Shown one piece after another: positions 59-57,110 of a stretch of 64,000 nucleotides of DNA (the first letter of the stretch is position 1; each line of letters begins with the position of its first letter). The notes beneath the pieces were generated by a model that saw only the letters and a program-made list of their open reading frames with translations, was not told where the DNA came from and searched no databases. The stretch comes from Forficula auricularia (Eukaryota > Arthropoda > Insecta > Dermaptera > Forficulidae), in the NCBI GenBank assembly GCA_024734495.1, contig JALMQS010000153.1:35588584-35652583 (forward strand), read 5' to 3'. Position numbers and translations under genes: made by a program.

Positions 59-147
59 AGCAGAATTATAGTTTAAAAATTGAGTGGATATTGATTGAGG
101 CAGACCAAAAAAAGAAAAATATACATTTATAATATCTTTTTATTCAT

Positions 148-190
148 AAACCGACGTTTCGGAGGCTATTCCCTCCTTCTTCAGAAAGAG
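148..190 (-). ncRNA. Hammerhead motif with disrupted stem I (element A, left arm)
   Basis: On the minus strand the core CTGAAGA (184 to 178), the stem II hairpin, GAAA (160 to 157) and CGTC match the right-arm copy. The 5' strand of stem I is different: CTCTTT precedes the core instead of AAACC, so it cannot pair with GGTTT (152 to 148). This copy is probably inactive in cis. Confidence 0.65.
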
Positions 191-233
191 AAGACAGAGA
201 ATGTCGCTATGGATTTCTCTTCACTGACTTTTC

Positions 234-276
234 AAAACCCTGAAGAAGGAGGGAATAGCCTCCGAAACGTCGGTTT
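234..276 (+). ncRNA. Minimal type I hammerhead ribozyme motif (element A, right arm)
   Basis: Core CTGAAGA is at 240-246 (C3 U4 G5 A6 N7 G8 A9, with N7 = A). Stem II is GGAGG (248-252) with CCTCC (259-263). GAAA is at 264-267, followed by CGTC (268-271). Stem I pairs AAACC (235-239) with GGTTT (272-276), a perfect 5-bp helix exactly where a type I hammerhead requires it. Stem III is reduced to the self-complementary ACGU, so activity would be expected from a dimer. Predicted cleavage is after C271. The AATAAA at 280-285 follows almost immediately. The fold is read from sequence; activity is not shown. Confidence 0.8.
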
Positions 277-773
277 ATGAATAAAAAGATAGTGTAAATT
301 ATCTTCTTCTTTTTTGGACTGCCTCATCAATATCAACTCAATTTCACTTATCAGTCCGTCTCCAAAAATTACTTCAATATTATAATTTTCCTAAGAATTT
401 TTTTAACAATTGGCTATCAGTGTCGCTAGTTGCGAAGGAGCTTCTCCAAATTGAAGTTGATAAAAAATTATCTTCGTTCCACAATGAGTGGTTTAAGACT
501 ACAAAATCTTGAAATATTGACCATTAATGAAGAAATTACAATCAATATAAATTTTGAGAGCATTATAGACAATTTTTCTACTATGAAAGTTAGAAGAGTA
601 AAAGTATATAAATATGTTTACATACACATATGTGTATAATTTGTTTATTTATCCAAAAGAAATGAAATTATTTATGTATAACATATAATAAAAAATATTT
701 AATGGTAATTTTTTTTAAATTAAATTCAAAGTTTTTTTGCTGAGGGTAGCAGAAATTTTATATATTGAAAGAG

Positions 774-974
774 ACAACAATAGTGTGCTTCTCGGAATTC
801 GAAATTTTTATTTATAACGAGACTATGGCCCGAGGCTGCCTCCTTCATCAGTCTATTACAATTATTTGTAATTATATAGTAACAATAATATTGTAATAGA
901 CTGATGAAGAGGGCAAACCCCTCGAGAATAGTCTCGTTATAAATAAAAATTATAATTCCAGCAGAAGACACACT
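774..974. repeat. Palindromic element B, degenerate hammerhead family 2
   Basis: The arms are 774-861 and 889-974, with a centre of about 27 bp. Each arm carries CTGATGA (minus 851 to 845; plus 901-907), a stem-II-like hairpin, and a shared end reading TAGTCTCGTTATAAATAAA. The GAAA of the core is altered in both copies (GAGAA on the right, GGCC on the left), so these look decayed. Better preserved relatives at 52840-52890 and about 44229-44280 suggest an ancestral GAAACTATAGTC, in which ACTATAGT is a self-complementary stem III. ATAAATAAA follows the motif in both arms. Confidence 0.65.
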
Positions 975-1203
975 CTTTTATTTCTCCATTTTTTTTTTTT
1001 TTTTTTGTGAATTCGGTATATTATTTGTCTCATAAGTGGGGAACCTGCCGTCTCCCTAAGTTTCTTGTGGCCTTTTAAAAAAGTATCTTGTATTTTTATA
1101 AAAGTGTATATTAAAAAATGCAAATCTTTAAAAAACAATGGTAGTTTTAAGAAATTTGGTGTTGGTACATGGTGAAATATTTTTTAAATTATTGGATAAA
1201 AAA

Positions 1204-2820: not shown

Positions 2821-2824
2821 TTTT

Positions 2825-3793: not shown

Positions 3794-5397
3794 CGAGGCC
3801 CGTCCCATCTCAATTGGTCCACCAATATTTTTTCTTTTTAAATAAAATTATGCTAATTCACGGTAAATTTAATTTAAATATTAATTTTTATTATCATTTG
3901 GAACAACATTTTAAACAATTTAAAACATTTTACCTTGTAACATTTAACTTAAAATTATTTTTTAATTGTTAAAAACAAGAAAACACACAAAATCCAAAAC
4001 CTTTATCACTGTGTGACGTTTTCAATTACGGCTTGAATTCTTTTGGGCAACGTACTTACTAAGTTTCGACACTCACCTTGAGTGAAAGTGATATCCCGAA
4101 ATATTTTGAAGTTTGTGTTTTAATTCGACTACGTTTCTAGCTGGTTGTATTCGTAATACCTTTTTCATTGTGTGCCAAAGAGTTTTCTATTGGTGACAAG
4201 TCGGGACTGTTTGTCCTGCCCACTCCAAAAGTGGAACATTTATGATCTGAAAGCCATTTAAAAAATTTTCCTGATGTATGGTGGGTCGCCCCGTCTTGTT
4301 GGAACACAAAATTATTATTATTCTGCAATGCATCTGCCATTGCTGGACGTAACGATTTTTTTAAATCTCTAAATATTTATTGGTGTTTACAATTCAATCA
4401 AGGAAGTGAAGTTTCCCAACACCTCTAGCAGACATTCAACCCCATAGCATAACTGAAGCAGGAAATTTTACTTTCTTTTTTAAACAATATGAATTGAAAG
4501 CTTCATTTTCTGACGGATAACTCTGCTTCGATTGTCCCCAACACAAACTTCAAATGAGACTCATCACTCCAATGGACACTATTCCATTCATCACTCATCC
4601 GATTAATGTGACTTTTAGCCCATTTAAGCTGGTTTTTCTTTTGTTTTAATGTCAAGAGTGGCTTTTCTTTCGCCTAAAAGAAATTAGTAAAATTACAAAA
4701 AAAATTTGGAATAAGTTGCAATAAAATTACCTTGTAAGTTTTAAAACCTAACTTAAAGGCTTCTCTATGGCACGTGGATCTTGAAACACTTCGCCCCACA
4801 GCATCGCTCCAAAGAACAGATAATTCACCATAGTTCGAACGCCTGTTTTTTCTAATAATCTTCCTCAATGCCCGTCTATCAGCATCTGATATTTTTGGAT
4901 TTCGACGCATGCCGAGGTTTTGTAGCTATTGTACCCGTTGTTTTATAAACTCGAATAATATTTCTGACAGTAAACTTTGATAAATTAACTAGATCGTGAA
5001 TTTCCGAGTTTGATTTTCCCTTTTTAAATAAATTGATAATAATTGAGCGAATTTTTTCATCAACAACCTTTCCACGAGTCATGTTTACTAATAATAAACA
5101 AAACAAACTTTCTTTTGTTGGAAAAAGGCAAAGCCTACTTGATTATTTCACATATTCAAAGATTCTTAAAAAAAAAATCGTGAAAAGCAAAGAACTATTT
5201 TTTATATAAAAATATGTTTTTAACAATTAAAAAATAATTTTAACTTAAATGTTACAATAAAATGTTTTAAAATGTTTAAAATGTTGTTCCAAATGATAAT
5301 AAAAATAAATATTTAAATTAAATTTACCGTGAATTAGCATAATTTTATTTAAAAAGAAAAAAATATTGGTGGGCCAATTGAGATGGGACGGGGCTCG
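3794..5397 (-). mobile_element. Tc1-like DNA transposon with long terminal inverted repeats
   Basis: TIRs start CGAGGCCCGTCCC (left, 3794) and end GGGACGGGGCTCG (right, 5397). They are flanked by TA on each side (3792-3793 and 5398-5399), the target duplication of this superfamily. The inverted arms are about 195 bp long, far longer than the minimal mariner TIR. The element lies inside MITE M1. The interior carries a broken transposase gene on the minus strand. Confidence 0.85.
4137..5082 (-). pseudogene. Tc1-like transposase pseudogene with a 57-nt intron
   Basis: The reading starts at Met 5082 (MTRGKVVDEK). A paired helix-turn-helix region follows (KSNSEIHDLVNLSKFTVRNI; then, after a one-base frame change near 4905, RNPKISDADRRALRKIIRKN). 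The segment ending in TYK is followed by a GT..AG interval (4730 to 4674 on the minus strand) with TTACTAAT and a T-rich tract before the AG. Joining across it restores the usual TYK-AKEKPLLT run. Downstream are the first catalytic Asp (HWSDESH), the second (FQQDGATHHTS, about 4300) and the final Glu (SPDLSPIEN). Additional stops between the first and second Asp show that the gene is dead. Confidence 0.8.
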
Positions 5398-10204: not shown

Positions 10205-12049
10205 ATGCCACCCAAATCAGTTCTTGACACAGTTAAAGGGGAGATACAAGCTCTGGGGATAGAAATTAAGCTTCTGCTCCAATACTCCTCTTACAAGGAA
10301 AATCCTCAGAAGGCAACACTAGTAGACGTACTAGAACAGGCAGCAAAACTAAAAAGTGACTTATCTAACATCATCAAAAAATCTTCTCAACATGCATTAT
10401 TCACAATAGAAGGAGGTGAAAACTTAGAAGACCAAATAACAACTCATCATAATTCACTCGTCACCTTTATTGGAGAAACCAAAATTCTTTTGTCACAAAT
10501 AACCCCCTCTAGTACTTCACAGGAAATCAACTCAACACAACTTACAATTCATCCTACTGTACATTTACCTACTCTAAATTTGCCTAAATTTTCAGGAGAT
10601 TACGATCAATGGAAATCGTTCCTAGACTTGTTCACAGCCACGATTGATAGAAATTCTTCACTCACCCAAGCTCAAAAATTATCATATTTGAAAGGGAGCT
10701 TGTCAGGCGCTGCAGCTCTAGTCATACAGGCTTACTCAATCACCGATGACAATTACTCCATTTGCTTACAATTACTCAAATCTCATTATGATCGCACTCG
10801 CGAAATAATATTCTCGTTTATTGACAAACTCTTGAATTTACACCCAATTACTCATGTAACGAAAGACACACTTTCTCAGTTTTCAATAGCAGTCACAGAC
10901 ATCACTCATAATCTTCAGACTTTAGGAATGGACCTAAAGGCGTGCAACCCTTTCATCACACGCATCATCATGAAGAAGGTGGATGGCCACTCTTTGGAGA
11001 GTTGGCTACACTCACAGTCAGTGGATGAAGTCCCTGAGTTTAACACTCTACTCAAACACTTAGACGTCAGATCTCAAGCCTTGGAGACACAGGCGAAAGC
11101 AACTCACTCTTCTAACAAACCAAACCCTCAATCATCATCCAGTTTCACAAAGAACAAATCGGTCAAGACCTACACCCTCACCACTACAGATAACTCTTGT
11201 CCCATTTGTAACAAACAACCTGTCCATCGCTTCATAGATTGTGACAAATTCAAGTCTATGACACCGATAGAACGTCACAAGAAAATCAGAGGGCTGAAAC
11301 GTTGTTTTCTTTGCTTCTCAGCACTTCACTTATCAGACAAATGTTCCTTTAAGCCTTGCTTTATGTGCAAAGGAGCTCATCATCGGATGTTGCACCTTCA
11401 ACCAACAGACAATGTCACACACAAATCTGAACCGTCTAACACAAGTCCCAACACTGCGGGCACAACACCTCCAGAAAAATCAAAACGTATATGTCAAGTG
11501 TCAAGGTCAGCCTATGAGGTTGTACCTATCTTATCGACCGCCTGTCTCAGTCTCCTATGTGCAGATGGAACTGTTCATACGGCTCGTTTTCTTATAGACA
11601 GTGCGAGCGAAGTTTCGCTTATTTCTAGTCAATTAGCACTGGCGCTTAAGACTAAGAAAACTTCTAATCCCATACAGATTGAAGGGTTAGGAGCTTCTTC
11701 CAAACTAGATGTCACTCACTCTACTTTTGTTTATATTTCCTCACGCTTTACAGACTCAGAATTTGAACCATTTGAATTCCACATAGTTAATTCACTACAA
11801 CTTAAATTACCAACCAAATCAGTAGATACATCCTCACTCTCATACCTTGAAGATAAACCTCTTGCTGATCCATGTTACCACACCCCTGCACCCATACAAG
11901 GGATCTTAGGAGCTTCTGCCTGCGCCAACATTTTTACCGGTGAGAAGATTGCTAGCCCTGACGGTAGCACAGCACTTTTCGGTTCCAAATTTGGATGGTT
12001 GCTGCTGGGTTCTGCTCCAGCCAAAATGAGCAGTTTTGCATCTGTGTGA
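10205..12049 (+). CDS. BEL/Pao gag-protease polyprotein
   Basis: This 614-residue frame begins at an ATG (MPPKSVLD) after a long A+T-rich leader. Residues about 115-260 resemble the DUF1759 gag-like region (LPKFSGDYDQWKSFLDLF). Zinc-knuckle-type motifs follow: one starting CPIC (about residue 331), a canonical CX2CX4HX4C (CFLCFSALHLSDKC, about 370) and CFMC..H..H (about 384). An aspartic protease of the DUF1758 type is at about 460, but its active site reads IDSASEV, with S-A where D-S/T-G is usual, so proteolysis may be impaired. The frame ends at a TGA while the protein is still protease-like (GWLLLGS). In intact BEL elements gag, protease and pol are one frame, so this stop is probably a mutation. 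It is among the longest intact frames in the window. Confidence 0.88.
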   Translation: MPPKSVLDTVKGEIQALGIEIKLLLQYSSYKENPQKATLVDVLEQAAKLKSDLSNIIKKSSQHALFTIEGGENLEDQITTHHNSLVTFIGETKILLSQITPSSTSQEINSTQLTIHPTVHLPTLNLPKFSGDYDQWKSFLDLFTATIDRNSSLTQAQKLSYLKGSLSGAAALVIQAYSITDDNYSICLQLLKSHYDRTREIIFSFIDKLLNLHPITHVTKDTLSQFSIAVTDITHNLQTLGMDLKACNPFITRIIMKKVDGHSLESWLHSQSVDEVPEFNTLLKHLDVRSQALETQAKATHSSNKPNPQSSSSFTKNKSVKTYTLTTTDNSCPICNKQPVHRFIDCDKFKSMTPIERHKKIRGLKRCFLCFSALHLSDKCSFKPCFMCKGAHHRMLHLQPTDNVTHKSEPSNTSPNTAGTTPPEKSKRICQVSRSAYEVVPILSTACLSLLCADGTVHTARFLIDSASEVSLISSQLALALKTKKTSNPIQIEGLGASSKLDVTHSTFVYISSRFTDSEFEPFEFHIVNSLQLKLPTKSVDTSSLSYLEDKPLADPCYHTPAPIQGILGASACANIFTGEKIASPDGSTALFGSKFGWLLLGSAPAKMSSFASV

Positions 12050-12261
12050 GGCACAGACCACTTCCCAAGGCTCGATCTTTGTATGTTTCAGCAGTGGGGA
12101 GCTAGAGGATTCTCTTAACTTACCTTTGCCGGAACGCTTTCATTAGAGGAAACCTCTGTTCGGACTCACACACAACACGTGGACAATCGCATACAGAGTT
12201 CACCTACCCTTAAAACCGGAATCGCACCTACCTTTGTGGGAATTCCGAATCCAAGGCATTT

Positions 12262-13293
12262 GTGCTTTTGCGGGCTCTGGAACGGAAATTTACAAAGAAC
12301 CCTAGATACCATACTCAATACATTGAATCCATGAATCAATATATTGACAACCATCACTTAGAGTTGGTACTACCTTCAGAACAATATCACAATAACAATA
12401 GATGTTTCTATCTACCCCACTCTGCAGTCCCAAAGAAAAACAGTTCAATATTGAGGATTGTTTTTAATGGATCTTCAACTTCGACAAATGGAAACTCACT
12501 CAACGATATTCTCATGCCAGGAGATGTCCTTCAAACCGATATAAGACATGTTCTTACCAATTTTCGATCACACCGATATGTTATTTGTATGGATATAATT
12601 TCTATGTTCCTTCAAATTCTTGTCGCAAAACCAGACCGAGATCTACTCCGCGTACTATGGCGTGAAAATTCCTCACAACCGATCTCAGTTTACCGTTTCA
12701 CTCGTGTGCCATTCGGATTATCTTGCAGTCCTTTCCTCGCTATTCGAGCGTTACATTACCTGGCTGATCAATTCTCCTCACAATATCCGACAGCTGCTAG
12801 TAACATAAAGACAAACTCTTATGTCGATGATTTCCTATTAGGAGCTGACACCATATCTGATTTGACCACGCTAGTTAAGGAGATTTGTTTTATCCTAAAA
12901 CAAGGATCATTCTTCTTTGACAAGTTTGCATCTAACTCACAGGAACTACTCGAAGACTTGAGAGATCTTCACCTCATCTCTGATTCTTCCAAGGTGCTAA
13001 GTCCTGGGGATATTTCAGTTCTGGGCATTGACTGGAGATCTCAAGAAGATAGTTTTTACTTCAAACTTACTATACCGAATGAAACTCCAAACACAAAAAG
13101 GGGTATTCTATCAGAACTCCAACGGGTGTATGATCCACTTGGTTTTTTGAACCCATGTCTGATCAAGTTTAAGATATTGTTCCAGGAGTTATGGAAAGAC
13201 AAGACGCTTGATTGGGATACTCCAATACCTCAATCTTTTCGAGACCTCATGGGAATTGTATCACAAGGAAGTTGCCAAATTCCAACACATTAA
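12262..13293 (+). pseudogene. BEL/Pao reverse transcriptase, part of broken pol
   Basis: The 343-residue frame covers most of the BEL reverse transcriptase: ALERKFTKNP (N-terminal signature), LRIVFNGSS, the first catalytic Asp in MDIISMF, FGLSCSPFLA, and YVDDFL with the two catalytic Asp residues (about residue 190). The connection region follows (LSELQRVYDPLGFLNP). Between the gag-protease stop (12049) and this frame, about 200 bp of pol N-terminus are out of frame. The frame ends at 13293 where a shift enters the RNase H remnant. The catalytic motifs are intact but the polyprotein is not. Confidence 0.88.
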
Positions 13294-13642
13294 AATCCCA
13301 CGGCTCTTAAAAAGTCTTGACGCTACAACTTACCGAATCATTTGGATTCTGCGATGCTAGTGACCTATCTTACGGATGCGTCCTTTACATGACATCATAT
13401 TATCATTCTACCCCTCCAAGATAGCAGATTCCTATATGCCAAATCTCGGGTAAGACCACTCAAACTAACTACAACTCCAAGGTCAGAACTCTTATCCGCA
13501 CATCTACTTTCAAAAGCTATTCATTTTATCCTTCCTTCGTTGTCCATGCCTATTCAGGAAATTAATTGTTTCTCTGATTCACAAATCGTACTCTCATGGC
13601 TGAATAAGAAGATCCCTCGGTTCAAGTCTTCTTACGTATGAC
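13294..13642 (+). pseudogene. BEL/Pao RNase H remnant
   Basis: Shifting between frames reveals FGFCDASDLSYGCVLY and INCFSDSQIVLSWL, typical of the BEL RNase H domain, with several stops and frame changes. It ends abruptly at the deletion junction near 13640, where sequence jumps directly into the integrase C-terminus. Confidence 0.7.
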
Positions 13643-13644
13643 GA

Positions 13645-14119
13645 AGGTGTCACGGCTTTGATTAAAATTGAAGCTCTTCTAAACTCTCGACCATTGTCTT
13701 CTCTGTCCAATGATCCAAATAGTTTTGAGGCACTCACACCAGGACATTTTCTGGTTGGAAGTTCTCTCACTACACTACCCATTCGAAGTGGAACGGATAC
13801 AAGAATTCCACTTACCAAACGTTGGAAATATGTCTCCAAACTTACTACTGAATTTTGGAATAGATGGAACCGGGAGCATTTGGCTCATCTACAGTTGAGA
13901 AACCGTTGGCTGCACAACAAGGAACAACCACAAGTGGGACAACTTGTGCTACTCTTAGATAAGGCGCTCTTGCCGGGAAAATGGACAATGGCTCGAATTA
14001 TTGAAGTTATACCCGGCAGAGATAAGTTGTCACGACTTGTTAAACTACGCACACCTAATGGGGAATGCCTTCGTCCAATCACAAAAATCTCACCCTTACC
14101 TATCAAACACGAAGGATAA
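13645..14119 (+). pseudogene. BEL/Pao integrase C-terminal fragment
   Basis: This frame encodes about 155 residues of the C-terminal part of BEL integrase: ALLNSRPLSSLSNDPN, LTPGHFLVGSSL, KRWKYVSKLTTEFWNRW and a terminal small barrel region (GQLVLLLDKALLPGKW, DUF5641-like). The zinc-binding N-terminus and the catalytic DDE core are absent, removed by the same deletion that truncated RNase H. It ends at TAA, about 130 bp before the 3' LTR. No obvious polypurine tract was found next to the LTR. Confidence 0.85.
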
Positions 14120-16346: not shown

Positions 16347-16511
16347 TATCATACAGTAGAACCTTGTTTATCCGGTCCTAACTGGGACCAAGCGCCGACC
16401 GGATAATCAAGAATTCGGATAATCCGAGGATCTCTGCGGTAATAAAAGCAGAAACAATTCCGCCAGACAAGGAATTTGAATTTAGCTGCGATAACTAGCT
16501 TACCGATTAGA

Positions 16512-16985
16512 TGCTGTATTTTAGAGGTATGTAACCCCTTTGGAACTAGATGTGAATTGTTCAGTATAGAGAATGAATTTTATTCTACGGTTGAATAATG
16601 AGATTTATTGTCTTGTTTAGATAGCTTTTTATTTTTCAAATCACGAGACGGTTTCGGTGGAGAATCTCCACCATCATCACTCTAAAAGTGGACAATGATA
16701 AAATAAATACAAAAAATGCAATCTTGGTAACGAACATACATATGTTATTGGCTTTTTGTTCGTTACCAAGATGGCATTTTTGAATTTATTTTATTTTAAT
16801 TTTAACTTCATTGTCTACTTTTAGACTGATGATGGTGGAGAGTCTCCGCCGAAACCGTCTCGTGATTTGAAAATAAAACATCTAAACAAGACAATACATC
16901 TCATTATTCAACCAGAATAAAATTCCTTGTCTTCATTTGAACACCACATCTGGTTCAAAGGGCTTACATACCTCAAAACAGCATC
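16512..16985. repeat. Palindromic element D with divergent hammerhead motifs
   Basis: The arms of about 220 bp are near-perfect inverted copies: tagatgctgt...ggtatgtaacc on the left and tacatacctc..acagcatcta on the right. The centre is near 16750. Each arm carries a hammerhead motif with its 3' end outward and aaaataaaa beyond it. On the left arm the core reads GTGATGA (C3 changed to G); on the right arm it is intact. Confidence 0.8.
16822..16866 (+). ncRNA. Hammerhead ribozyme motif (element D, right arm)
   Basis: CTGATGA at 16826-16832 is the textbook core. Stem II pairs GGTGGAGA with TCTCCGCC (with one G-U pair). GAAA is at 16851-16854, followed by CCGTC with predicted cleavage after C16859. 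Stem III is only A-U and C-G around one base, too small to be stable alone. Stem I is weak next to the core (GA/TC, then mismatches). AATAAA follows 12-17 bases downstream of the cleavage site. Confidence 0.7.
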
Positions 16986-17186
16986 TAATTATTATACATA
17001 AGCCATCAGCGCCTTTATAAAAAAACATGTTTATTTCAAAATATCAAAATTAAAGCGAATTTTTGGTGAAATTATAATTACATTCTTGCTATCAGGGTTA
17101 AAAATTATTATCTGTGTGAACATTTATTAAAATAAAAATCCGGAGGTGCTGATAAATGAGGGCCGGATAAGCGAGGCTTTACTGTA

Positions 17187-18220
17187 TCAATTTAAAAACA
17201 AAATAATGTTCTTTAAAAAGGGTATTTTTTCGCCTTTGAATGTAAGCAAACTTCAATTAACCCTTTAGTTTCTGAATGTTTGGTCGCCCGGTAGGACACC
17301 AGTATGCAATCCCGAGTTGTTTGCTTTTTCTTAATGCAGTATAATTTGATGTGACAACCTGATTGGCTTGTGCCCTTTGTCCTCAAGGGTGCAACAGGCA
17401 TGACCGAGAGGGTCTCTTCCTCTTTTTTAAGTTCAATAAAGAGCTATTTGGAGGAGATTATAAATGATCAAGCAAGTCATCCTCATGACTCCTAAGATCA
17501 ATGAAGGCAAGACCTTGACTACCAGCATCCTTACTTGTTGCACTTGGAGGTTTATTAAAAATCGGTCTGTCACATTAATGGCTGATAAATGATGAATATC
17601 AGTTAAAAAGAGCCAATTCTCCCTTCAGAGTAACATCAAAACCCTTCGAAATCCTTTGTTGAAGGGTTTCCCTTGGTTTGGAAACCCCTTAATGTATATT
17701 TTGATTACATTCGCCAATGCAACACTTGCCCTATTCTTAGAAGAGTGTTAAGCTAGGAACCAGCTGATAACTAAAAACATACAGGCATTAGCCCTCTCGT
17801 CGAATCTTTATTATATTTAAATAAAAAAGTCATTAAAGCATTTTTATTCATCAATTGATTAAATTCTGGAATCTATTGAATGTCCAAACAAATAGCAGCA
17901 GAAATTTTAAATTGTGTACCATTTCGAAACTATCAAACCTACAGCAATCAAATTTTACAATTTCCATTTATACAGATGATTATAATTATTCAGCACTACG
18001 TGGATGCAGAACTCTTATAAATCGAGAAATTTTATTAAACGGGTAACAGATTAAGCGGTTAGGTTTTTTTGAAGGCGCTAAAGAAATATAATTTGCTCTT
18101 AAATCTGGACTCATTGAAATTTTAAAGATTATTTTTGTTATAAAAATAATAATAATAATATTAATTATTATTATTTTGATTAGTTATGTCCCACGATTAA
18201 ATGATTAAATTTGGTATCGG
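17187..18220. other. Intergenic sequence without recognisable feature
   Basis: Short frames here (17213-17401 minus, 17855-18046 plus) have no recognisable domain and ordinary A+T-rich composition. No paired repeats were found apart from simple (aat)n runs near 18150-18175. Confidence 0.45.
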
Positions 18221-18263
18221 GAAATAAGGACTATATTTTTTTATGCAAATAATTTATATTTTA

Positions 18264-18304
18264 TTGCCAACGTTTCATCAACTTTGTTGACTTCTTCAGG
18301 GCTC
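18264..18304 (-). ncRNA. Hammerhead ribozyme motif (element E, left arm)
   Basis: On the minus strand, stem I GCC (18302 to 18300) pairs with GGC (18268 to 18266). The core CTGAAGA (18299 to 18293) is intact, stem II is TCAAC-AAA-GTTGA, and GAAA then CGTT follow. All elements match the right-arm copy except one base beside stem II. AATAAA follows immediately after stem I. Confidence 0.8.
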
Positions 18305-19059
18305 TAAAAAGTGATAAGACCTCAATTAATACAAATTATAACATTTTCAAATCAAAATCAAAATTGATCTCAAAAACCATTTCAATACATACAAAAAACA
18401 AATTAATACACAGTGTATGTAGTGATATGGTTTTGGAATCAATTTTGATTTTGATTTGAAATATTTATAATCTGTATCTTATTAAACAAGCAAAAATTGT
18501 ATATTTATAATTAAGTAATGGAGAAGGATTCAGCCAATGGGTAGCCTCTGCTGAATAATAATTGTATATTTATTTGTATCTTAGTTCTATTTTGAAAACG
18601 GCTAAACAGATTTTGATGAAATTCACGGGTTAGGGGGTTTTTGGAGTGACAATTCGATCTGTCACGGTCTCATCTTCGACAAAATTGTTTTTGATGGGTT
18701 TTTTCGTAATCAAATTAATTATTCTCAGGTAGACAAATCCCATTCTTAGGGTTTTTAAAAAAGGTTTCCCTTTTTCTTTTATACCCAGGCAGACAATGGG
18801 TTGTTTGTTTCATTGTTCTAAAAGGCCTTGAAGAAGTATTGTGATTGTGGATTTTAACATATTTTGTTCTCCCTAAACGTTAGAAATATTAATAAACGTT
18901 TTATAATTGTTTTTATAAAGAACTTTATTTATTTAATAGAATAAAAAATAATCAAAAATTTATTTAAAAATATATTTCGCATAAGCAGGTCTCAATTTTC
19001 TGAAAAAAACAACACATTTTGATAGGTTTTATTTATTAACAATTGGATGAATAAAAATG

Positions 19060-19320
19060 AATCATATGGTTGAATCAAAACAGGTGCAGGAAGTGGGGTG
19101 CAGTGGTGGGGGATCCGGGGGTAGGGCGAGGTTTCGGGGGTGGGGTCAAGCGGGGTGGGGGTTTACAGTGGGCGAATACTTATATATATTTGTATTTTTT
19201 TTTAATTTGAAAACGGCTCTCAAATAAAAATCGACCTTTTTTATCAGAATTTTAAATTTAAAATAATATTAAAATAAAGGTTTTAACTGAAGGAAGAAGT
19301 TACCGAGCATCGCTCGGTGC
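19060..19320 (+). repeat. G-rich dispersed repeat, copy 1
   Basis: The block with ggggatccggggg and tataaatatttgtattt-like sequence, followed by cgagcatcgctcggtgcctc, resembles the reverse complement of 50685-50885, where cgatactcgtt, aaatacaaatata and ccggatccccaccactgcac occur in reverse order. Confidence 0.6.
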
Positions 19321-19362
19321 CTCCAGAGTACTCTGTATTGATTGAGATTTTATCACTTTTTA

Positions 19363-19403
19363 GAGCCCTGAAGAAGTCAACAAAGTTGAAGAAACGTTGG
19401 CAA
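19363..19403 (+). ncRNA. Hammerhead ribozyme motif (element E, right arm)
   Basis: Stem I GCC (19365-19367) pairs with GGC (19399-19401). Core CTGAAGA is at 19368-19374. Stem II pairs TCAAC with GTTGA across an AAA loop. GAAA is at 19391-19394, then CGTT, with predicted cleavage after T19398 (a UH site with H = U). AATAAA overlaps the 3' strand of stem I. Confidence 0.8.
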
Positions 19404-19445
19404 TAAAATATAAATTATTTGCATAAAAAATATAGTCCCGAAACC

Positions 19446-20600
19446 AACTTTAATAATAATAATAATTATTATTTCTCCAAAACTTTTTAAATAAATTTAA
19501 TAATTTAAATAAATTTTTATTTATTATAATATTAAATTCGCTAAACACATTTGGTCATCATTGATTGACCATCCTTAGTAATAAATAAAGTATTAGTTTT
19601 TAGGAAGTGTCACTAAAAAGTAAAAAGTTTATCGCTACTGAAGATGGACAACCAGGGGTGACTGAAAAATGTAGTGAATTGTAATAAATAAATAAAAGAA
19701 AGAATTTATTTAAATTAGCAAATTTATATCACTAAAAAATAAATATTCCTTGAAGTATGAAGAAAGAAATTTTATTTAATTAGGCTAAACCCTAAACAAA
19801 GATATAGGTATTCTATTAGACAGTGCACATGCACGAAATCATTTTCGACTCGAGTAAAAAGCTTCAATTAAAAAAATATATAGGTATCTTAAAGAAATAT
19901 TTAAGAAAAAAAACATGTGTGAGCTTCATCCACATAAGATCCCTATTATTATTTTAAAAGCCACTAATAGTTCATCACAAATAAAATGTAATAATATTAT
20001 ATTAGGAAATTTAAATTATTATTTTAAAATCAAGTCTTGTCTCCAATTTCCTCTCTATTAGGATATTTCTCCTTTATTGTAACAAAAAAATTCAAACAGA
20101 TACGTCTCTAAAGAAGTTTCACTTCAATAATCATCAACCTACTTGGTATTTAATGTAAGCAAAATATGCATGGTAGTTACAGGGTTAATGTCACCATTGG
20201 AATTATTCTTGCCTCAAATCACTATTATTTTCTTTATTGGGCCTCCGAGGAGCGGGCCACCTCTCACAATAACGATAAGATAGATATGTACATATTTACA
20301 AGCAACTTCACACTTTCAGCTTCAGAACAATTAACTAAAATTCAGAGTGGGTGGATGAGAGAGCCAGGATAAATCCTGACTCACATTTCACTTTTTTTTT
20401 TAAATTTACAATAAAATAATTATACGCCGCCCGCTCTATAGGTTCTTCTGCCAAAAGTGTAAAAATTAAAGAGAGATCCCCTCATCGGCCTATATGTTAA
20501 ATCATTTATTGTTCTTTGGGATATACTCAGAGCGACGAGGAACTCCACCGCTTTATGCCACCATCGCTCCGCAATATTTTCCACCAGACTGGAGTTGCCC
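19446..20600. other. A+T-rich sequence without recognisable feature
   Basis: No gene supported. A short frame at 20166-20372 has no recognisable domain. Confidence 0.45.
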
Positions 20601-24320: not shown

Positions 24321-24349
24321 ATTAATTAATAATTTTAATTATAATGCCG

Positions 24350-33505: not shown

Positions 33506-33867
33506 TAACGTTCCTTCTGGTACCAAGCTGTTTATAATTCCAAAATAATGTACTGATTAGATTTTTGAGCTTCCAGTTGAGAAATAAAGCAAAATAAAAA
33601 TACATAAATAAAAATTAATTAGCCGGGCAAGTGTGAGTTGGGCCGCATACCGAGGGTCCAGTATCTTATAACTTCTAAAATAAAATTAGTGAATTTGATG
33701 GAACTTTTTCAAAATCTTAAGTTAAGACATTCTAGAAGCCAATTATTACGTAAAAATAAAAATAAAAGTAAATAAATATTATATGAAATATTCAATTACT
33801 ATGAGTTAAGATTACTAAGTCACTTGCTTCACATTAAAAATTAAAAAAATAAATGAGGTAAATTTTT

Positions 33868-33909
33868 TCAATATATATATTTCGGGCTGTAAACCCATCT
33901 TCAGGAAAA
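33868..33909 (-). ncRNA. Hammerhead ribozyme motif (element F, left arm)
   Basis: On the minus strand, TTTTC precedes the core CTGAAGA (33904 to 33898). Stem II begins GGG and ends CCC. GAA is followed by the fully self-complementary ATATATATAT, then T, then GAAAA, which pairs with TTTTC as stem I. The 10-nt palindrome can be a hairpin-less dimeric stem III. Confidence 0.7.
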
Positions 33910-33917
33910 TAAAGAAG

Positions 33918-33966
33918 TTTAACTGAAGATGGGCTTACAGTCCGAAAATATATATATTGAAAAAAT
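33918..33966 (+). ncRNA. Hammerhead ribozyme motif (element F, right arm)
   Basis: CTGAAGA is at 33923-33929, stem II GGGC..GTCC follows, and GAA is followed by an (AT)n self-complementary segment, then T and GAAAAA. The 5' strand of stem I is TTTAA rather than TTTTC, so stem I is weaker than in the left arm. Confidence 0.6.
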
Positions 33967-34170
33967 TTACCTCTTTTATTTATTTTTAATTTTGAATGTG
34001 AAACAAGTGACCTAGAAATTTTAACTCATAGTAAATGAATATTTCATATAATATTTATTTACTTTTATCTTTATTAAAGATGTTTCACCTTGCACCAACA
34101 CCACAATCTCTATTTTATTTCTAATTATTACGTAAAACATTTAGAACGTATTATATTAATTTCTCTATAC

Positions 34171-41204: not shown

Positions 41205-41905
41205 ACCTTTGCTGAAGACATGGAGGTATCGAGTTAAAATCAAAAATAGTGATTGATTCTGATCTAATAACTTGAGGAATAACCATTCTAAATTGGATTT
41301 TTGACGTTTCGGTTTTTATTGGTAACCATTGCTGAAGACATGGAGGTATAGAGTTAAAATCAAAAATAGTGATTGATTCTGATCTAATACTTGAGGAATA
41401 ACCATTCTATATTGGATTTTTGACGCTTCGATTATTATTGGTAACCATTGCTGAAGACATGGAGGAATCAGCTTAAATTCAAAAATAACGATCGATTCTT
41501 TTCTAATACTAGAGGAATAACCTTATCGCATTCCATTTTTGATGTTTTGACTATTAATGGCAACCTCTACTGAAAATGTGGAAGAATCGACTTAAAATCA
41601 AAAAGACTAAATTATTTTTTGGTAAACAACTCAAGCTTGAGTTGTTTGCCATAAAAGAATTTAGTCTTTTTGATTTTAAGTCGATTCTTCCACGTTTTCA
41701 GTAGAGGTTCCATTAATAGTCAAAACATCAAAATGGAATGCAATAAGATTATTCCTCTAGTATTAGATAAGAATCGATCGTTATTTTGATTTTAAGTCAA
41801 TTCCTCCGTGTCTTCAGCACTGGTTACAATAATAATCGAAGCGTCAAAAATCTAATGTAGAATGGTCATTCCTAGACTGTTAAATGAGAATCGATCATTA
41901 TTTTG
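41205..41905. repeat. Tandem 120-bp repeats followed by a long palindrome
   Basis: Three diverging tandem units of about 120 bp (41212, 41330, 41448; each with ccattgctgaagacatggag and ttgaggaataac) run into a palindrome centred near 41640 (aactcaagcttgagtt). Its right arm repeats one and a half units in reverse. No coding frame and no TIR-type ends were recognised. Confidence 0.8.
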
Positions 41906-42252
41906 AATTAAAGTTAGCATGAACTGCATATAGCAAGTGATATCTGATTAATAATAAAGGAATAAACGATATTTCAAATGAATTTGGATAAAGTTTAGCA
42001 ACGATCCGTTGCAGTTTATTTACAATATATTCTGGGACCTTCGCCCCAAACGGTTACTGCTTTGTGTGAGTGAGGGTAAGAGTCAGAAATTAATTCTTGT
42101 GACTTAAACTTCACAGTCCCTGAGATAGAAATCGATCATCTTCGACAATGAATCAGCCTGTTCTATAAGAAAATTTTAAATTGCTCCTAATCCTATTGCT
42201 ATAAGCAAGCTATGACTTGTCTATAGCGCTCTTAGTTAGATCCGATCTTGTA

Positions 42253-50684: not shown

Positions 50685-50885
50685 TAAAGTACCTGGAGCC
50701 AATGAGCGATACTCGTTAACTTTTGCTTCAGTTAAAAGCTATATATTAATATTATTTTTAATTTAAAATTCTGATAAAAATACAAATATATATAGTACAT
50801 GCCCCCTGGACACCCCTCCCGAACCCCCCGGAAACTCCGCACTTGGGCACATCCCGGATCCCCACCACTGCACCCCTCACATCTA
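50685..50885 (-). repeat. G-rich dispersed repeat, copy 2 (inverted)
   Basis: Reverse-oriented relative of 19060-19320; shared words include aaaatacaaatata, ccggatccccaccactgcac and cgatactcg. Confidence 0.6.
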
Positions 50886-51429
50886 CTCGCACCCAGCTTT
50901 TCCATTTCTAGCCTTCTAGTGGCCCACAGATTATGATGTGTATATAGTTAAATAAATAAATTCCGTATAATTATTTTTTTAAATTAAATAACAATTTATC
51001 GAGTTTGATAATTAATTAAATTGGCAAATTCTAATATATAATAATATTACTTATGAACTGTTTGTGGGATTTAAAACTCGCTTTATAATCAATTAAATTG
51101 CTTAATTTTAATATGGTATAATTTTATTTGGTATAAAGTATTCGTGGGTTTTAAAAGTAAAAAACCAATTAATAAATAAAAGATAATTGAAAAAATGTAA
51201 ACAAACTTTTTTATTGACATTTTCATCTATCAATAATTAGTTTAATTAAGAAAAAGCCAATTAAGATGAATTTTGATGAAGTCCAGACCTAACCAGATAG
51301 CTTTCTCATCCTCAAAACTTGTTAATAGAGTTCGATTCATCAAAATCAGTAGAGCCGTTTTCAAATTAAAAAAAATAAGCTGACGTGTTCTGATGTGGCC
51401 ATCCACTAGACTTTGCCATACAACCTGGC

Positions 51430-51900
51430 CCCTCACTTACATTAATATTTAATAAAATTATTTATAATCATGTAGGGGAGGAGGGTTAGTTTTTGCATTT
51501 TTATTCTCCCAGAAGCACACTGATTATGTATACAAAATTTGGTTGAGTTTGGTAAATGACCAAGATTTTCATTTTTTGAACCCTCCACCCCCCCCCCCCA
51601 TTTTGTGTGGTTAGTTAATGCATTTTTAGAATTCTGGGGACCCACTGTATACAAAATTTGGTTGAGTTTGGTAAATGGCCAAGATTTTCATTTTTTTGAC
51701 CCCCCACCCCCATTTTGGGCGGTTAGATTTTTCATTTTTAGGCTTCTGGGGGTCCACTAATTATGTATACAAAATTTGGTTGAGTTTGCTCAAACGACCT
51801 AGATTTTTAATTTTTAACCCCCCCCCCTTCCCACCCCTTAATTTTGGGTCGATGTGCACCAAAATCTAATCAGCTCTTAATCTCAATGGACCAAAAAACC
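51430..51900. repeat. Tandem repeats of about 115 bp, C-rich
   Basis: Three to four units contain tatacaaaatttggttgagt, ccaagattttcattttt, a C-run and attttgggcggttag. Flanking pieces on the left (51240-51430) match R1 in reverse orientation. R1, the 47.8-kb palindrome and this block form one related repeat group. Confidence 0.75.
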
Positions 51901-52067
51901 ACATTTTTCATGCACGATTACAATACTTGACCATACCCTGTATGGTAAAGTAATACAAATATATAAACATATAAATATACAATTTTTGGTCGTTTAATAA
52001 GAGTAGATATGTTTATTAATAGTGAGTTGGTGTTTACTGATTATGTACTGATATCGTATTACTAAGG

Positions 52068-52305
52068 AAATCACAAGAGGTTGTCATTTACTAGAACTGA
52101 GATAGTATGGATTATTTTTAATTAGGTAAGTAAGCGCGTTTTCACCCTCGGGAATCGAACCTAAAATTAAAATTTTAGCCCAATTATCTTGTTAGTTTTG
52201 GTGCTCTGGTTCATTCCCGCGGGGGTGGTAACAATCCTTCTGACATATATTTAAAAATAATCTATTCCATCTAGTAGATAACAACTTCTTGTGATTTTTA
52301 TAAAA
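52068..52305. repeat. Inverted repeat containing SINE-like S2 pieces
   Basis: The outer arms aaatcacaagaggttg and caacttcttgtgattt are inverted. The centre holds two S2-like heads: minus ggttcgattcccgagggtga at about 52152 and plus ggttcattcccgcgggggtg at about 52210. This arrangement resembles two head-to-head SINE pieces. Confidence 0.5.
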
Positions 52306-52599
52306 GTTTAAAGTCTACTTCTATCTATTTTAACTATTATTTTATTATTTATTAATTTGGAAATGGCATTTAAAATTGTTTTATATCCGTAAAAATTTGA
52401 TTGGCTAAATCCAAATATGTCGAAGACATATATGTATCACTTCATCATCAGTGGAAGATACTTATCTCACCAATATGTCGCTATCCAAAAGAATACACAA
52501 AGATTTTTACATTATAAAAAGAAGCATTAACAAAAATCTCTCAATAGTAACAGAAAACACACAGAGACAGAGGCAGATGTTTTAGATTAAGCCAACAAA

Positions 52600-53145
52600 T
52601 TTTTCAGCCTCACTTTAAAATACAAATTTAAAGCTTCTTTTTCGGATGCATTGCTAATTTCAAGTAGGACACTTTTCTGAGATTTCGAATACTTTCCACC
52701 AAATGCATTCTCCATCAAAATTTGTAATTGTGGCAATTGGATTTACGATCCTTCTAAATTAAATTGAAATTTTCTTTTTGCCGAGAGTAGCAGAATTTTT
52801 ATAAAAACACATCAATTCCTGTGAATCAATTGTAATAGACTGATGAAGAGGGAAAAGCTCTCGAACTATAGTCTCGTTATAAATAAATTTAAAAATGTAT
52901 TTTTTCAGCAGAAGACACACTCTTTTATTGTCTTCTTTAATTAATAAAAATTCTGCTACCCTCGGCAAAATGAAACTTTCAATTTAATTTAAAAGAATTG
53001 TCATTCCAATTGCCACAATTACAAATCTTGGTGGAGAATACATTTGGTGGAAAGTATTCGAAATTACAAAAAAATATCTTACTTTAAATTAGCCATGCAC
53101 CCGAAAAAGAAGCTTTAAATTTTTATTTTAAATTGAGACTGAAAT
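52600..53145. repeat. Palindrome with arms of about 200 bp around a hammerhead family 2 remnant
   Basis: Left-arm words gccgagagtagcagaattt, aattgtggcaattgg and gatttcgaatactttccacc return inverted on the right. The centre (52840-52890) holds CTGATGA, a stem-II-like agaggg..ctct, then GAACTATAGTCTCGTTATAA, one A short of the GAAA core. ATAAATAAA follows. Confidence 0.7.
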
Positions 53146-53229
53146 ATTCTACTGAATGTAAAAATATTTGGTTCCACAAGACATGCCCCTCCGAGAACAT
53201 CATTCCAATAAATTTTAATAATTTTTGCT

Positions 53230-53945
53230 TTACCATACAGGGTATGGTAAGTAACCGTGCATGAAAAAAATGTTGTTGTTTTTTGCTAACTTTTTTCGAA
53301 ATATCTCAAAAATGGCTGAAACTATTTTGATTAAAAAAATTGAGCGAAACCATGGCAAAAAAGTTCTAACAAGTGAACATCGAAAAAATTATATTTTTCA
53401 AGATAATAACTGTTTTGTCAAAATGTCTGTTAGTACGTGCGTTACTAAATTTTGTGGACGAGCAAGCTCAAAAACTATTGTGAATATCAAAACCAAATTT
53501 CATACCTAATTTTGGTGTATTGAGATTAAGAGCTGATTAGATTTTGGTGCATATTGACCCAAAATTAAGGTGGAGTTAGGGGGGGGGGTTAAAATTTAAA
53601 ATTATAATGTTTTCAAACTAAAAAAAAAAAACAAGAAAAATGAATTATACTATAAAATGAACCTATAATAATGAAAATATTTTTTTTTCTGGCGCCTAAA
53701 TTAGGGGGTGATGATCAAAATAAATCACAATAAATCTAGGACATTTGTGCAAACTCAACCATATTTTGCATACATAATCAGTGGGCCCCCAGAGCACTAA
53801 ACATGTAAAAACAAACCCCCCGAAATGGGGGGGGTTAGGGTCAAAAAATTAAAATCTAGGCCCTTTTGTACCAAACTCAACCAGAAGTTTATGGTAAAGT
53901 CTTGTGGATGGCCACATCAGAACGTGTCTATTTATTAATTGATAT
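53230..53945 (+). repeat. Dispersed repeat R1 (copy 2)
   Basis: Second copy of the repeat at 1328-1810, here without hammerhead arms. An open frame at 53261-53509 is part of the repeat and encodes nothing recognisable. Confidence 0.65.
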
Positions 53946-53949
53946 ATTC

Positions 53950-54245: not shown

Positions 54246-54248
54246 TTA

Positions 54249-54829: not shown

Positions 54830-54950
54830 TTAATAGAGAATTGATGAAAGGCAGCAAATACAATTCCGAATAAAATAAATTTATTGGAAAGTCATTTTGA
54901 TCCTCTCAGAAACCGACGTTTCGGAGGATCGTCCTTCTTCAGGGTTTAAG
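54830..54950 (-). repeat. Element G, left inverted arm with hammerhead
   Basis: About 120 bp matching 56970-57110 in reverse: acaattccgaataaa, aaagtcattttgatc, then the hammerhead motif. It ends about 60 bp before the PPP2R3C start codon. Confidence 0.75.
54910..54947 (-). ncRNA. Hammerhead ribozyme motif (element G, left arm)
   Basis: On the minus strand, stem I AAACC (54947 to 54943) pairs with GGTTT (54914 to 54910). Core CTGAAGA (54942 to 54936). Stem II AGGA-CGA-TCCT. GAAA then CGTC, with cleavage predicted after that C. Stem I and the stem III remnant are identical to element A, but the rest of the arm differs. It is antisense to the PPP2R3C transcript. Confidence 0.75.
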
Positions 54951-55009
54951 GTAGGTAGTTCTTAGATTATTTTCATGAATTTATTGAATGACATGAAATA
55001 GAAATAATA

Positions 55010-55275
55010 ATGGATTTGAAACAAATGTTAATTAAAGCATTAGTAAATAAAAAAGGTAATTACTATTTTATTAAAAAATTCATTTGAAAATACACTTACA
55101 CTTATTACTCTTTTTGATTGAAATTAAAGGCAATGAAAATGAATTGAATAATAAAAAATTAAATGATAATGAAGAATCAAAGTTATTTTTTAAACAATTT
55201 AATGAATGGAAGAAAAATAGTAAATCGAAATATTTAGATCATAATGTCAATGAAATTCCTAGGTTTTATTTTAAG
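55010..55275 (+). CDS. PPP2R3C: PP2A regulatory subunit B'' gamma homologue, exons 1-2 (partial)
   Basis: Exon 1 (55010-55055) encodes MDLKQMLIKALVNKK and ends AAAG before GT. Exon 2 (55130-55275) follows a 74-nt GT..AG intron and encodes KLNDNEESKLFFKQFNEWKK and NEIPRFYFK. It ends AAG before GTAATA. Phases agree (1 nt plus 2 nt make a Gly codon). The order and spacing match the N-terminus of animal PPP2R3C (MDWKEVL, then ..F.KYYSEWK.., then IPRFYYR), a subunit that directs protein phosphatase 2A and has EF-hand-like domains further on. The remaining exons are not found up to 64000, so intron 2 is at least 8.7 kb and filled with transposons. The start codon is the first in frame. A hammerhead arm lies about 60 bp upstream. 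Confidence 0.75.
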
Positions 55276-55601
55276 GTAATAATCTTGTATATTAATGACA
55301 ACTAGCTCTAACCAGCCCAGTTATATTTAAAATGTATACTTAATTAAGATTTCTTTATCAAGTACACGATATCCTGTATTTTAATTCTTAAGATGGTAAA
55401 TTTTTTAATAGATAATGTATGAATCAAGTACTTAAGGTAGTTCTTTCACAAATGCAAAAATTCAAGAAGTCTTTCGAAACTTGGAATATAAGTAATTAAA
55501 AGCATAATACACATACTGTTAAAATTTAAAGACGATTTACCACACGAAACATGAAATAATTGCAATTGAAAATGACATTTTTTAAATAGGGTAGATAGGG
55601 A

Positions 55602-55892
55602 TTTAATTAGAGGCGGCTGTGGGTCAGTGGATAGAGTGTTGGCCCGCTGACTCGAAGATCGCTGGTTCGAGACCGAGTCTCGGCAGATAGATATTTGCAG
55701 TCGCCTCCTCTTGGAAAGTAATGGCAACCTGCCAAGAGTATAATTGCCTAGTAACCTCTCCAAATTAGCCGTTCGGAACCGGGGTTAAAGAGTAAGTCCC
55801 GTATATCTGTGTAAAACAACTAAAACACACTCAGCACAGATATATGTGGAGAGGAGCCGACACCCGTTTCGGGTATGGCACTCGAAGAAGAA
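55602..55892 (+). mobile_element. tRNA-derived SINE family S3 with (GAA)n end
   Basis: The head GGCGGCTGTGGGTCAGTGGA, an A-box-like segment and B box GGTTCGAGACC (about 55664) form a tRNA-like region. A unique body of about 200 bp ends in gaagaagaagaag. Flanks agataggga (about 55593) and agatagggaa (about 55896) look like a target duplication. The (GAA)n end is shared with the RTE-like LINE at 22508-23513, a possible source of its transposition machinery. It lies in intron 2 of PPP2R3C in sense orientation. Confidence 0.8.
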
Positions 55893-56969
55893 GAAGATAG
55901 GGAAAGGGTGGGGATATGATAATTTTTTTTTTCATCATCTTAATGAAAAACCAATATTTGTTAGAATAATATATTCGGAGTAACTTGAAAAAAAAATTGA
56001 AATTATTTACCTCTTAGTTTTGATAAAAAACAAAAAAAAACATATTTGGGCGATTATTTTTAGTGGAGGGGATATAAGCACATATAGGCTTGGAAACGAT
56101 CCGGCAAGTATGTGTGTATCCATATAGAGATTTAATAGTGTGAGTAGACAGTCACATTTAAAAAACATAACCTAAAATTTTAGTTCCGTTCATATTTATA
56201 GAGTGGTTACGAGGCTAAAACTTTTTATGTGGATTGTCGCGAAAAAAACCTCATTAAAAAGGTCAATGAAGGAAACATGCAGGATACTTCGTTCTTCTCT
56301 TCTCCAGCAGTGCTCGAAATTTGCCGTTTCTTAAGGAGGTCCTTTCGTTGCCAATATTAAATAAAAATATTAGATCATAACTATAACTTAATTTTTTATA
56401 AATTGTTTAAGTCTCTATCTATGCTTTGGTGAAGTTTCAATTACACATTAGCGAGCAAATTTTTGAGAATAAAATTTTGAAAATGTAAACATTTTCTCAG
56501 AGTCTAATGGAAAATTAAGATCTTGACACTTTCTCTTGAATTATAGTACTATTAGTTGATTATATAAAGTTAAAAAAAAAGAAAAAATTAGCTTTTTGAA
56601 ACATCCAAGTATCTTTTTTTGCAATAAAATATATCATTGACCGACGAATTTATTTAGATATTTACTTTAAAAAATCACCGTAATGCTTTGTTTGGATGTA
56701 TACATTAAAAGTATTAATACAACGCATTGCCAAATCATACAATAATTAATATCATCTGATTTGAATAAATCAAACTAAATTTTGTATTTAATTATTTTTT
56801 TTATAATTGTTTTTATTTCAAACATTTACGGCTATCATACTATTTATTTTTTAATTCTATTATTTTTCTATATTTTTTGTATTTTTAACTTATTTTATTA
56901 AATAGGTATTAGATACTACATACTTAATTCCTTTATATTAAGGAAAAAAATTCTATTGTTTCCTTAATT
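55893..56969 (+). other. Intron 2 sequence of PPP2R3C without recognisable feature
   Basis: A+T-rich, no further exon of the gene found by eye, no paired repeats. Confidence 0.5.
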
Positions 56970-57110
56970 GACCCTTTAAACCCTGAAGAAGGAGGGAAGA
57001 TCTTCCGAAACGTCAGTTTTTAAGATGATGAAAATGACTAATAAATAAATTTATTCGGAATTGTATTTTTTCATTATTCTAGGGCTGCTTTCCATCAATT
57101 CACCATTAAC
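56970..57110 (+). repeat. Element G, right inverted arm with hammerhead
   Basis: Inverted counterpart of 54830-54950. Similarity continues beyond the motif (ttcggaattgtattt, gctgctttccatcaattc). Together the arms span 2.3 kb and enclose PPP2R3C exons 1-2. Confidence 0.75.
56978..57019 (+). ncRNA. Hammerhead ribozyme motif (element G, right arm)
   Basis: AAACC (56978-56982), CTGAAGA (56983-56989), a GGA..TCC stem II, GAAA (57007-57010), CGTC, then AGTTT. Stem I has an A/C mismatch at the pair next to the core and four good pairs beyond. It is sense to the PPP2R3C primary transcript, inside intron 2. Confidence 0.65.

Follow-up and report, generated by a model that had tools for sequence, protein, structure and literature searches.

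Head-to-head hammerhead ribozyme pairs in a Forficula auricularia contig are best read as old insertion products of Penelope-like elements

What kind of genetic element leaves hammerhead ribozymes (HHRs) behind in inverted pairs, one copy on each strand? The question is raised by a 64,000-nt stretch of the genome of the insect Forficula auricularia (assembly GCA_024734495.1, contig JALMQS010000153.1, positions 35,588,584 to 35,652,583; the whole stretch is hereafter called the window), in which a preliminary description had recognised seven such pairs (loci A to G) and had taken them for an active or recently active class of small, palindromic, non-coding elements, possibly mobilised in trans by a Penelope-like enzyme. 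We find that these loci are best read as old, inert insertion products of Penelope-like elements (PLEs) rather than as a new kind of mobile element. Specifically, they are probably old 5'-truncated insertions of several PLE families, in which hammerhead-bearing pieces of pseudo-long terminal repeats (pseudo-LTRs) were joined in a head-to-head orientation, the 3' ends facing outward. The argument builds on features observed directly in the window: the ribozyme motifs, their family-specific pairing, the head-to-head layout, a target-site duplication and one-sided tail at locus F, an AC-rich motif common to loci C and F, and the divergence between arms.

Layout of the hammerhead loci

The hammerhead-bearing loci, with ribozyme positions given as that of core residue C3, are as follows.

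Locus A, 77-344: palindrome, arms 77-201 and 220-344; HHR on the minus strand (184) and on the plus strand (240).
Locus B, 771-986: palindrome with degenerate HHRs; left-arm homology to the copy at 52.9 kb extends outward to about 721.
Locus C, 1108-1909: inverted arms 1199-1284 and 1808-1886; degenerate HHRs (UUGAAAA).
Locus D, 16506-16989: palindrome, arms 16506-16736 and 16757-16989; HHR on the minus strand (16680, C3 changed to G) and on the plus strand (16826, intact core).
Locus E, 18196-19463: inverted arms 18196-18338 and 19329-19463; HHR on the minus strand (18299) and on the plus strand (19368).
Locus F, 33756-34075: palindrome, arms 33756-33909 and 33918-34075; HHR on the minus strand (33904) and on the plus strand (33923).
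Locus G, 54836-57106: inverted arms 54836-54949 and 56976-57106 around a 2-kb spacer; HHR on the minus strand (54942) and on the plus strand (56983); same family as A.
B-family copy, 52598-53148: inverted arms of 208 nt; single HHR at 52840 on the plus strand, GAAC for GAAA.
Decayed B-family copy, about 24180-24340, minus strand: truncated HHR joined to an inverted outer end.

Inverted arms are present at all seven reported loci, and at 7/7 the ribozyme (or its derivative) lies on the minus strand in the left arm and on the plus strand in the right arm, with the 3' ends outward, just as first described. Counting pairs in the window gave seven inverted and no direct ones. A BLAST comparison of the ribozyme arms of the reported loci found similarity between loci only for A with G, in agreement with the earlier estimate of about six families. 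The two additional B-family copies, like the tail and duplication of F and the AC-rich motif of C and F (see below), were absent from the earlier list; in both, the outer ends are inverted and the inverted arm halts before the ribozyme, leaving one HHR or a truncated HHR.

This arrangement bears on whether the loci might be metazoan retrozymes, which are likewise small non-coding repeats with type I hammerheads and for which PLEs have been suggested as movers (available parts of PMC7229834 and PMC7761336, respectively). We rejected this candidate, since all seven pairs are inverted, with no direct pairs, and the six tandem repeats scoring at least 80 miss the loci; metazoan retrozymes, in contrast, are described in the available part of PMC7229834 as short direct tandem repeats, typically with tertiary loop contacts.

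A second alternative, the one put forward in the preliminary description, is a real non-autonomous palindromic family that a PLE enzyme copies whole, in trans. Loci A, B, D and F are indeed short and non-coding, a transcript of either strand would carry the same signals, which would suit trans-mobilisation, and the inverted arm halts, as judged by eye, at nearly one place in both additional B-family copies. Against copying as a unit, the inner junctions differ among the three B copies and also between A and G, and the arms within a locus diverge at 5.5-11.1% of aligned sites (gaps left out). We regard such a family as unlikely. In A and F the arms are clearly homologous only as far as CUGA, with some alignment persisting over a few bases upstream.

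The longer loci enclose other sequence. The 0.5-kb spacer of locus C resembles other repeats at 51-54 kb, and degenerate repeats are common to 50688-53936, 1393-1809 and 18478-19332; the spacers of C and E therefore hold repeat sequence that also surrounds the B copy at 52.6 kb. Within the spacer of G, 55609-55905 looks by eye like a tRNA-like SINE (short interspersed element); ARAGORN finds no tRNA in the window. At 18329-18477 a second palindrome continues the left arm of locus E and recalls the palindromes at the 5' ends of PLE pseudo-LTRs.

Ribozyme cores and stems

The hammerhead motifs were scored against random controls with two descriptors. The exact descriptor (CTGANGA, a stem II of at least 4 bp, one unpaired base tolerated, and GAAA) returned seven matches over the 64-kb window, all within A, D, E, F and G, compared with a mean of 0.17 (maximum 2) in 30 first-order Markov sequences. 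Allowing one core mismatch raised the count to 15 versus a random mean of 5.4 (maximum 10), and with two mismatches the signal was almost gone (random mean 47.2, maximum 55). A graded descriptor, whose scoring was devised after the motifs were known, found nine sites at a score of at least 30, again all in A, D, E, F and G, versus two matches in 40 random sequences (0.05 each, best 31.3); since both arms of one palindrome are non-independent, these strong sites amount to five independent loci. The left arm of locus A scored only 28.9. At a score of at least 26 there were 18 sites versus 0.7 per random sequence, and 7 of the 18 fall outside the reported loci and the B copy. One unpaired base was permitted in both descriptors because a descriptor without that base after CUGANGA missed every reported locus, its single match lying at 7256.

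These counts leave little room for the explanation that the motifs arose by chance. In favour of chance, the covariance models of Rfam 15 gave no hammerhead match over the window, either at the gathering threshold or at E 10, and the same was true of two short stretches; the 32 Rfam matches obtained at E 10 were all under their own gathering scores, the strongest lying on hairpins (47.9-48.1 kb, locus B and 3.2 kb). The weak descriptor matches outside the loci point the same way. Yet seven exact cores versus 0.17, nine strong sites versus 0.05, and pairing that is kept across families (see below) make the probability of chance motifs negligible in our view, the counts speaking against it for A, D, E, F and G.

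The preliminary description had every locus carrying CUGANGA, stem II and GAAA. A hammerhead-like core is indeed present on both arms of A, D, E, F and G, with the qualification that the left core of D has G in place of C3 (its right core is intact), but the statement fails for B, both arms of which have lost GAAA and read GAGA and GGGC, and for C, both arms of which read UUGAAAA in place of CUGANGA. At the motif level, a minimal type I hammerhead of the kind carried by PLEs appears to be present in A, D, E, F and G, and is degenerate in B and C; on this point the observation made at first is confirmed in part.

Among 15 parsed arms, stem II consists of one unpaired base and 5-7 pairs in 11; in a further three the unpaired bases number two and the pairs 4-5, and the left arm of G folds otherwise. 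Stem I strands were said to flank every core, which does not hold: 5/15 parsed arms have practically no stem I pairing (weaker than -0.3 kcal/mol, 10-nt strands). The left copy of locus A lacks a pairing 5' strand, and the right arm of F has no stem I in the parsing register, the graded descriptor finding a short stem in another register.

Where stems do form, strands pair with their own partners. We permuted stem strands among seven loci, represented by one arm each of A, C, D, E, F and G and by the B copy at 52840 standing in for locus B. The energy observed for own-strand pairing was reached by 4/5040 permutations for stem II and by 46/5040 for stem I; the arms were chosen after seeing which were intact, and the related loci A and G are both in this set. 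Without G the figures were 2/720 (stem II) and 6/720 (stem I), and with five loci (the B copy, D, E, F and G) 1/120 and 3/120, respectively. C and D contribute little or nothing to the stem I signal.

In the position of stem III, A, E and G have ACGU and F has a run of AU, self-complementary strings that cannot close inside one ribozyme; ACCGU in D and CUAUAGU in the B copy are near-palindromes. Small dimer-cleaving hammerhead variants of PLEs have reportedly been described (Lunse 2017; Cervera and de la Pena 2014), and the present ribozymes resemble these in having a self-complementary stem III that can pair only between two ribozymes. They differ in that the copies here are inverted, and one transcript cannot give two sense copies. 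Cleavage as dimers, as had been proposed, thus misfits the layout: an inverted pair cannot supply the dimer for a palindromic stem III because each transcript carries one sense ribozyme, together with one antisense ribozyme.

Hammerhead-like strings also occur elsewhere. At 52451 on the minus strand, near the B copy, a weak site scores 29.0, within the range of the best random scores, with GACA replacing GAAA. A 119-bp tandem array at 41205-41909 (3.4 copies) reverses at a palindrome near 41635 and then runs back inverted; the minus strand of its unit has GAAACGTC, or a close variant of it, with no preceding CUGANGA, and the array was rejected as a hammerhead and left uncounted. In contigs of a viral collection a stricter hammerhead pattern had no matches, and a looser pattern matched five stretches, one match apiece, with no second copy on either strand of the sequence examined; these strings, one of which (contig L002, 11740-11776) is a single copy of GAAACGUU with a 7-bp stem II, are probably chance.

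Insertion signatures and a probable Penelope-like origin

PLEs offer precedents for the layout. As the available part of PMC3846280 has it, the typical PLE insertion is an open reading frame (ORF) with pseudo-LTRs and an adjacent inverted pseudo-LTR, shorter than the direct one; the head-to-head form is the inverted form most frequently observed, with palindromes at the junction; one inverted pseudo-LTR bears a 31-bp tail; target duplications are 8-10 bp or none; and simple AT-rich targets are favoured. The accessible section of PMC8969392 counts 5' truncation, inverted pseudo-LTRs and 3' extensions among PLE features, and those of PMC7761336, PMC6155905 and PMC7229834 report minimal type I hammerheads carried by PLEs; that of PMC12910113, on Drosophila virilis, mentions neither hammerhead nor pLTR. 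According to PMC11167929, AT-rich DNA is cut on both strands by a PLE protein, which also extends both, starting at two internal sites of its RNA; the commonest start is an AC-rich stem loop 111-118 bp into an ORF that starts at stem II of the ribozyme, and the sequence separating the two start sites corresponds to the tail.

Insertion signatures around the arms of A and F are as follows.

33741-33755 (left copy) and 34123-34137 (right copy), plus strand: 15-bp target-site duplication of locus F.
34076-34122, plus strand: one-sided tail of locus F, 47 nt, 28% C and 6% G.
345-378, plus strand: possible C-rich tail of locus A, 34 nt; the left flank is nearly repeated just after it (P 0.11, not significant by itself).
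65-74 and 379-388: flank near-repeat of locus A, ATTATAGTTT and ATTATAATTT, 9/10 matching.

The left arm of locus F adjoins AATTATTACGTAAAA, and on the right 47 nt lie between the arm and the same 15 AT-rich bases; the score of this duplication was equalled by 0/2977 random flank pairs. For comparison with the tail, a similar bias (C not below 27.5%, G not above 7.5%) is seen in 508 of the 25582 40-nt stretches taken from both strands of the window. The duplication is longer than the 8-10 bp of Adineta vaga PLEs (available part of PMC3846280).

Could the loci instead be DNA transposons or foldback elements whose terminal inverted repeats include hammerhead-like sequence by coincidence? Inverted repeats are by themselves frequent in the window, which has 63 inverted pairs of at least 40 nt within 4 kb, and the HHR loci overlap 6 of the 25 longest; a Tc1-like element with long inverted repeats also lies at 3.8-5.4 kb. 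However, F has a 47-nt one-sided extension inside its 15-bp duplication rather than symmetric abutting ends, the HHR 3' ends point outward in 7/7, the stems are preserved by pairing rather than by sequence, and an AC-rich motif is common to two families outside their arms. We therefore consider such elements a very improbable source.

The AC-rich motif was found at two loci.

34083-34102, plus strand: AC-rich motif at F, TTTCACCTTGCACCAACACC, inside the tail, 160 nt downstream of C3.
1158-1177, minus strand: AC-rich motif at C, TTTCACCATGTACCAACACC, 87 nt downstream of C3 of the left ribozyme; the right arm is without it.

Both sites, with the consensus TTTCACC[AT]TG[CT]ACCAACACC, read outward from the ribozyme. 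In a whole-window BLAST the two match at 83% over 36 nt (E 5e-4), and the C and F ribozyme arms are otherwise unrelated by BLAST. Pattern-free scoring placed the C-F flanks in a tie for the best of 84 between-locus pairs, with a score of 23, compared with 21 for the best of 3976 random pairs. By analogy with the start site in PMC11167929, the position and composition of the motif is as expected for a PLE, and its presence at both C and F slightly raised our confidence in the PLE-insertion reading, which was already good. On the side, the right arm of locus C looks like a loss of the AC-rich stretch between two ATTGTTTTT repeats.

Taken with the minimal hammerheads, these features bring the loci close to endonuclease (EN)-containing PLEs of the Penelope/Poseidon type. 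Shared with these, to judge from the available parts of PMC7761336, PMC6155905 and PMC3846280 and from PMC11167929, would be a minimal type I hammerhead without a real stem III; head-to-head inverted pseudo-LTRs with an optional one-sided 3' tail and AT-rich duplicated targets; and an AC-rich stretch downstream of the ribozyme (here in F and C). Unlike such PLEs, the present loci show no ORF or enzyme, and C, E and G enclose other sequence in their spacers. Solo or inverted pseudo-LTR insertions in Adineta vaga are comparable in that only pseudo-LTR pieces of the element are present, in some cases enclosing unrelated captured sequence; they are from a different animal, and the word "hammerhead" has 0 occurrences in the available part of PMC3846280. 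The link to Penelope-like enzymes suggested in the preliminary description thus gains support from the hammerheads, the head-to-head layout and the duplication and tail of F, as far as sequence can indicate it.

Several points weigh against this origin. PLE membership would rest on non-coding features: no PLE coding sequence was found in the nine large ORFs or in 30 of 59 further open stretches of at least 75 aa (the 20 longest and 10 chosen ones), nor was a GIY-YIG domain found in the same set, although solo pseudo-LTRs would lack one. RVT_1 matches among the large ORFs cannot alone separate LINEs (long interspersed elements) from PLEs, and coding capacity is not evident in the arm sequence downstream of the HHR. 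A one-sided tail with an AT-rich target duplication is clear at F only; the duplication test is unconvincing for the six other loci, giving P 0.11 for A (34-nt C-rich stretch and 9/10 repeat, in an arrangement like that of F), 0.03 for B (a poly-T string), 0.11 for E, 0.20 for C and G, and 0.97 for D, which has none, with the arm edges of E, F and G fixed by eye before the test. The AC-rich motif occurs in only 2/15 arms, the remaining 13 being at the random level; just two sites in the window lie within three mismatches of its consensus (shuffles 0.02), a pattern that was built from those two sites themselves, and the other flank pair scoring 23 (C right with G right) is AT-rich. At C, moreover, the motif lies within the arm and marks no terminal tail, because inverted homology resumes outside it (about 1108-1139 with 1878-1909, in the region 1078-1198 / 1878-1935) and the right arm lacks it.

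How would a PLE have produced such loci? We infer PLE parentage, a two-ended mechanism and which arm halted first. A PLE protein would cut both strands of an AT-rich target. Each 3' end would then serve as a primer, with reverse transcription beginning internally, within or close to an AC-rich stretch that lies 3' of the ribozyme. Both cDNAs would extend inward beyond the hammerhead, halt at different points and be joined; in A and F, the arm with a paired stem I would be the one that ran on. The outcome would be a palindrome with a target duplication, and with a one-sided tail when the two ends had used different start sites. The hammerhead would serve the RNA life cycle of the parent element and, buried in a hairpin in the inverted product, would probably be idle there.

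Self-priming is a rival route to the palindromes within PLE insertions: a strand end folds back and copies itself, and the second arm is a copy of the first. It was proposed for PLEs from palindromes at inverted junctions (available part of PMC3846280), and it fits the short distances that separate the aligned arms in A, B, D and F (18, 17, 20 and 8 nt, respectively) and the palindrome adjoining the left arm of E. Self-priming alone, however, gives no one-sided tail as in F, leaves out the both-strand cutting and extension seen in vitro (PMC11167929), and must contend with the inverted arm halting before the HHR in both additional B copies. We favour two-ended target-primed reverse transcription because it explains the outward 3' ends, the one-sided tail and the unequal inner ends together; self-priming is a less likely route, its odds overlapping with those of the PLE-insertion reading as a whole.

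To go by PMC11167929 and the available part of PMC3846280, how PLEs build inverted structures is unsettled between these two models, self-priming and both-strand cutting with extension. Pseudo-LTR palindromes with a hammerhead as internal ruler, a duplication and a one-sided tail are close to the simplest products of such a reaction. If the rest of the genome resembles the window (7 to 9 sites per 64 kb, six families), tails, inner junctions and arm-specific variants could separate both models.

Age, activity and surrounding sequence

Active or recently active elements, as claimed in the preliminary description, are hard to reconcile with arms that differ at 5.5-11.1% of sites and with B and C cores that are broken on both arms. 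We also asked whether the ribozyme is better conserved than the rest of the palindromes and rejected this: 20/338 HHR columns differ between arms versus 43/510 outside (Fisher P 0.18, gap columns omitted and arms hand-trimmed). When transcripts of A and of F with its tail, the only two folded, were modelled, each was predicted to form one long hairpin (-150.7 kcal/mol for A, shuffles -52; -172.1 kcal/mol for F, shuffles -48), which would pair the ribozyme with its own antisense. Given the arm divergence, the dead cores in 2/7 loci, the ribozymes predicted to be buried in A and F, and the missing dimer, the layout is more easily read as an insertion by-product.

Nor do the loci call for a distinct class of palindromic elements, as head-to-head inverted pseudo-LTRs are ordinary for PLEs according to the available part of PMC3846280. 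No paper treating inverted hammerhead pairs as elements in their own right was found, judging by titles and abstract starts, and such pairs could still have been reported. One form of that idea is a strand-blind, self-standing non-autonomous PLE, in which read-through RNA from either strand would have the reverse transcriptase start site on its 3' side and be copied as a unit, the hammerhead trimming it after pairing in trans; we consider this quite unlikely. Of the earlier interpretation, the minimal PLE-type hammerheads and the PLE link are retained, while recent activity and a distinct palindromic class are not.

The window as a whole is insect-like and rich in repeats, with a BEL-Pao element, reverse transcriptase ORFs, a mariner helix-turn-helix (HTH) domain and a Tc1-like element.

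10205-14119: ORFs of the BEL-Pao element.

We take the RVT_1 ORFs to be Pao and LINE from a Pao peptidase match and sequence motifs. The BEL-Pao ORF has 16 relatives, the best at 56% identity, with relatives from Helicoverpa, Bactrocera, Eurosta, Gonioctena and Malaya at 25-31%. Several long inverted pairs, reaching 196 nt at 93%, are nested at 57704-60797 and include no strong hammerhead site. The Tc1-like element, at 3828-5362, has 105-nt inverted repeats that are 98% complementary and fragments with Tc1/Sleeping Beauty HTH matches, mostly below the Pfam cut-offs.

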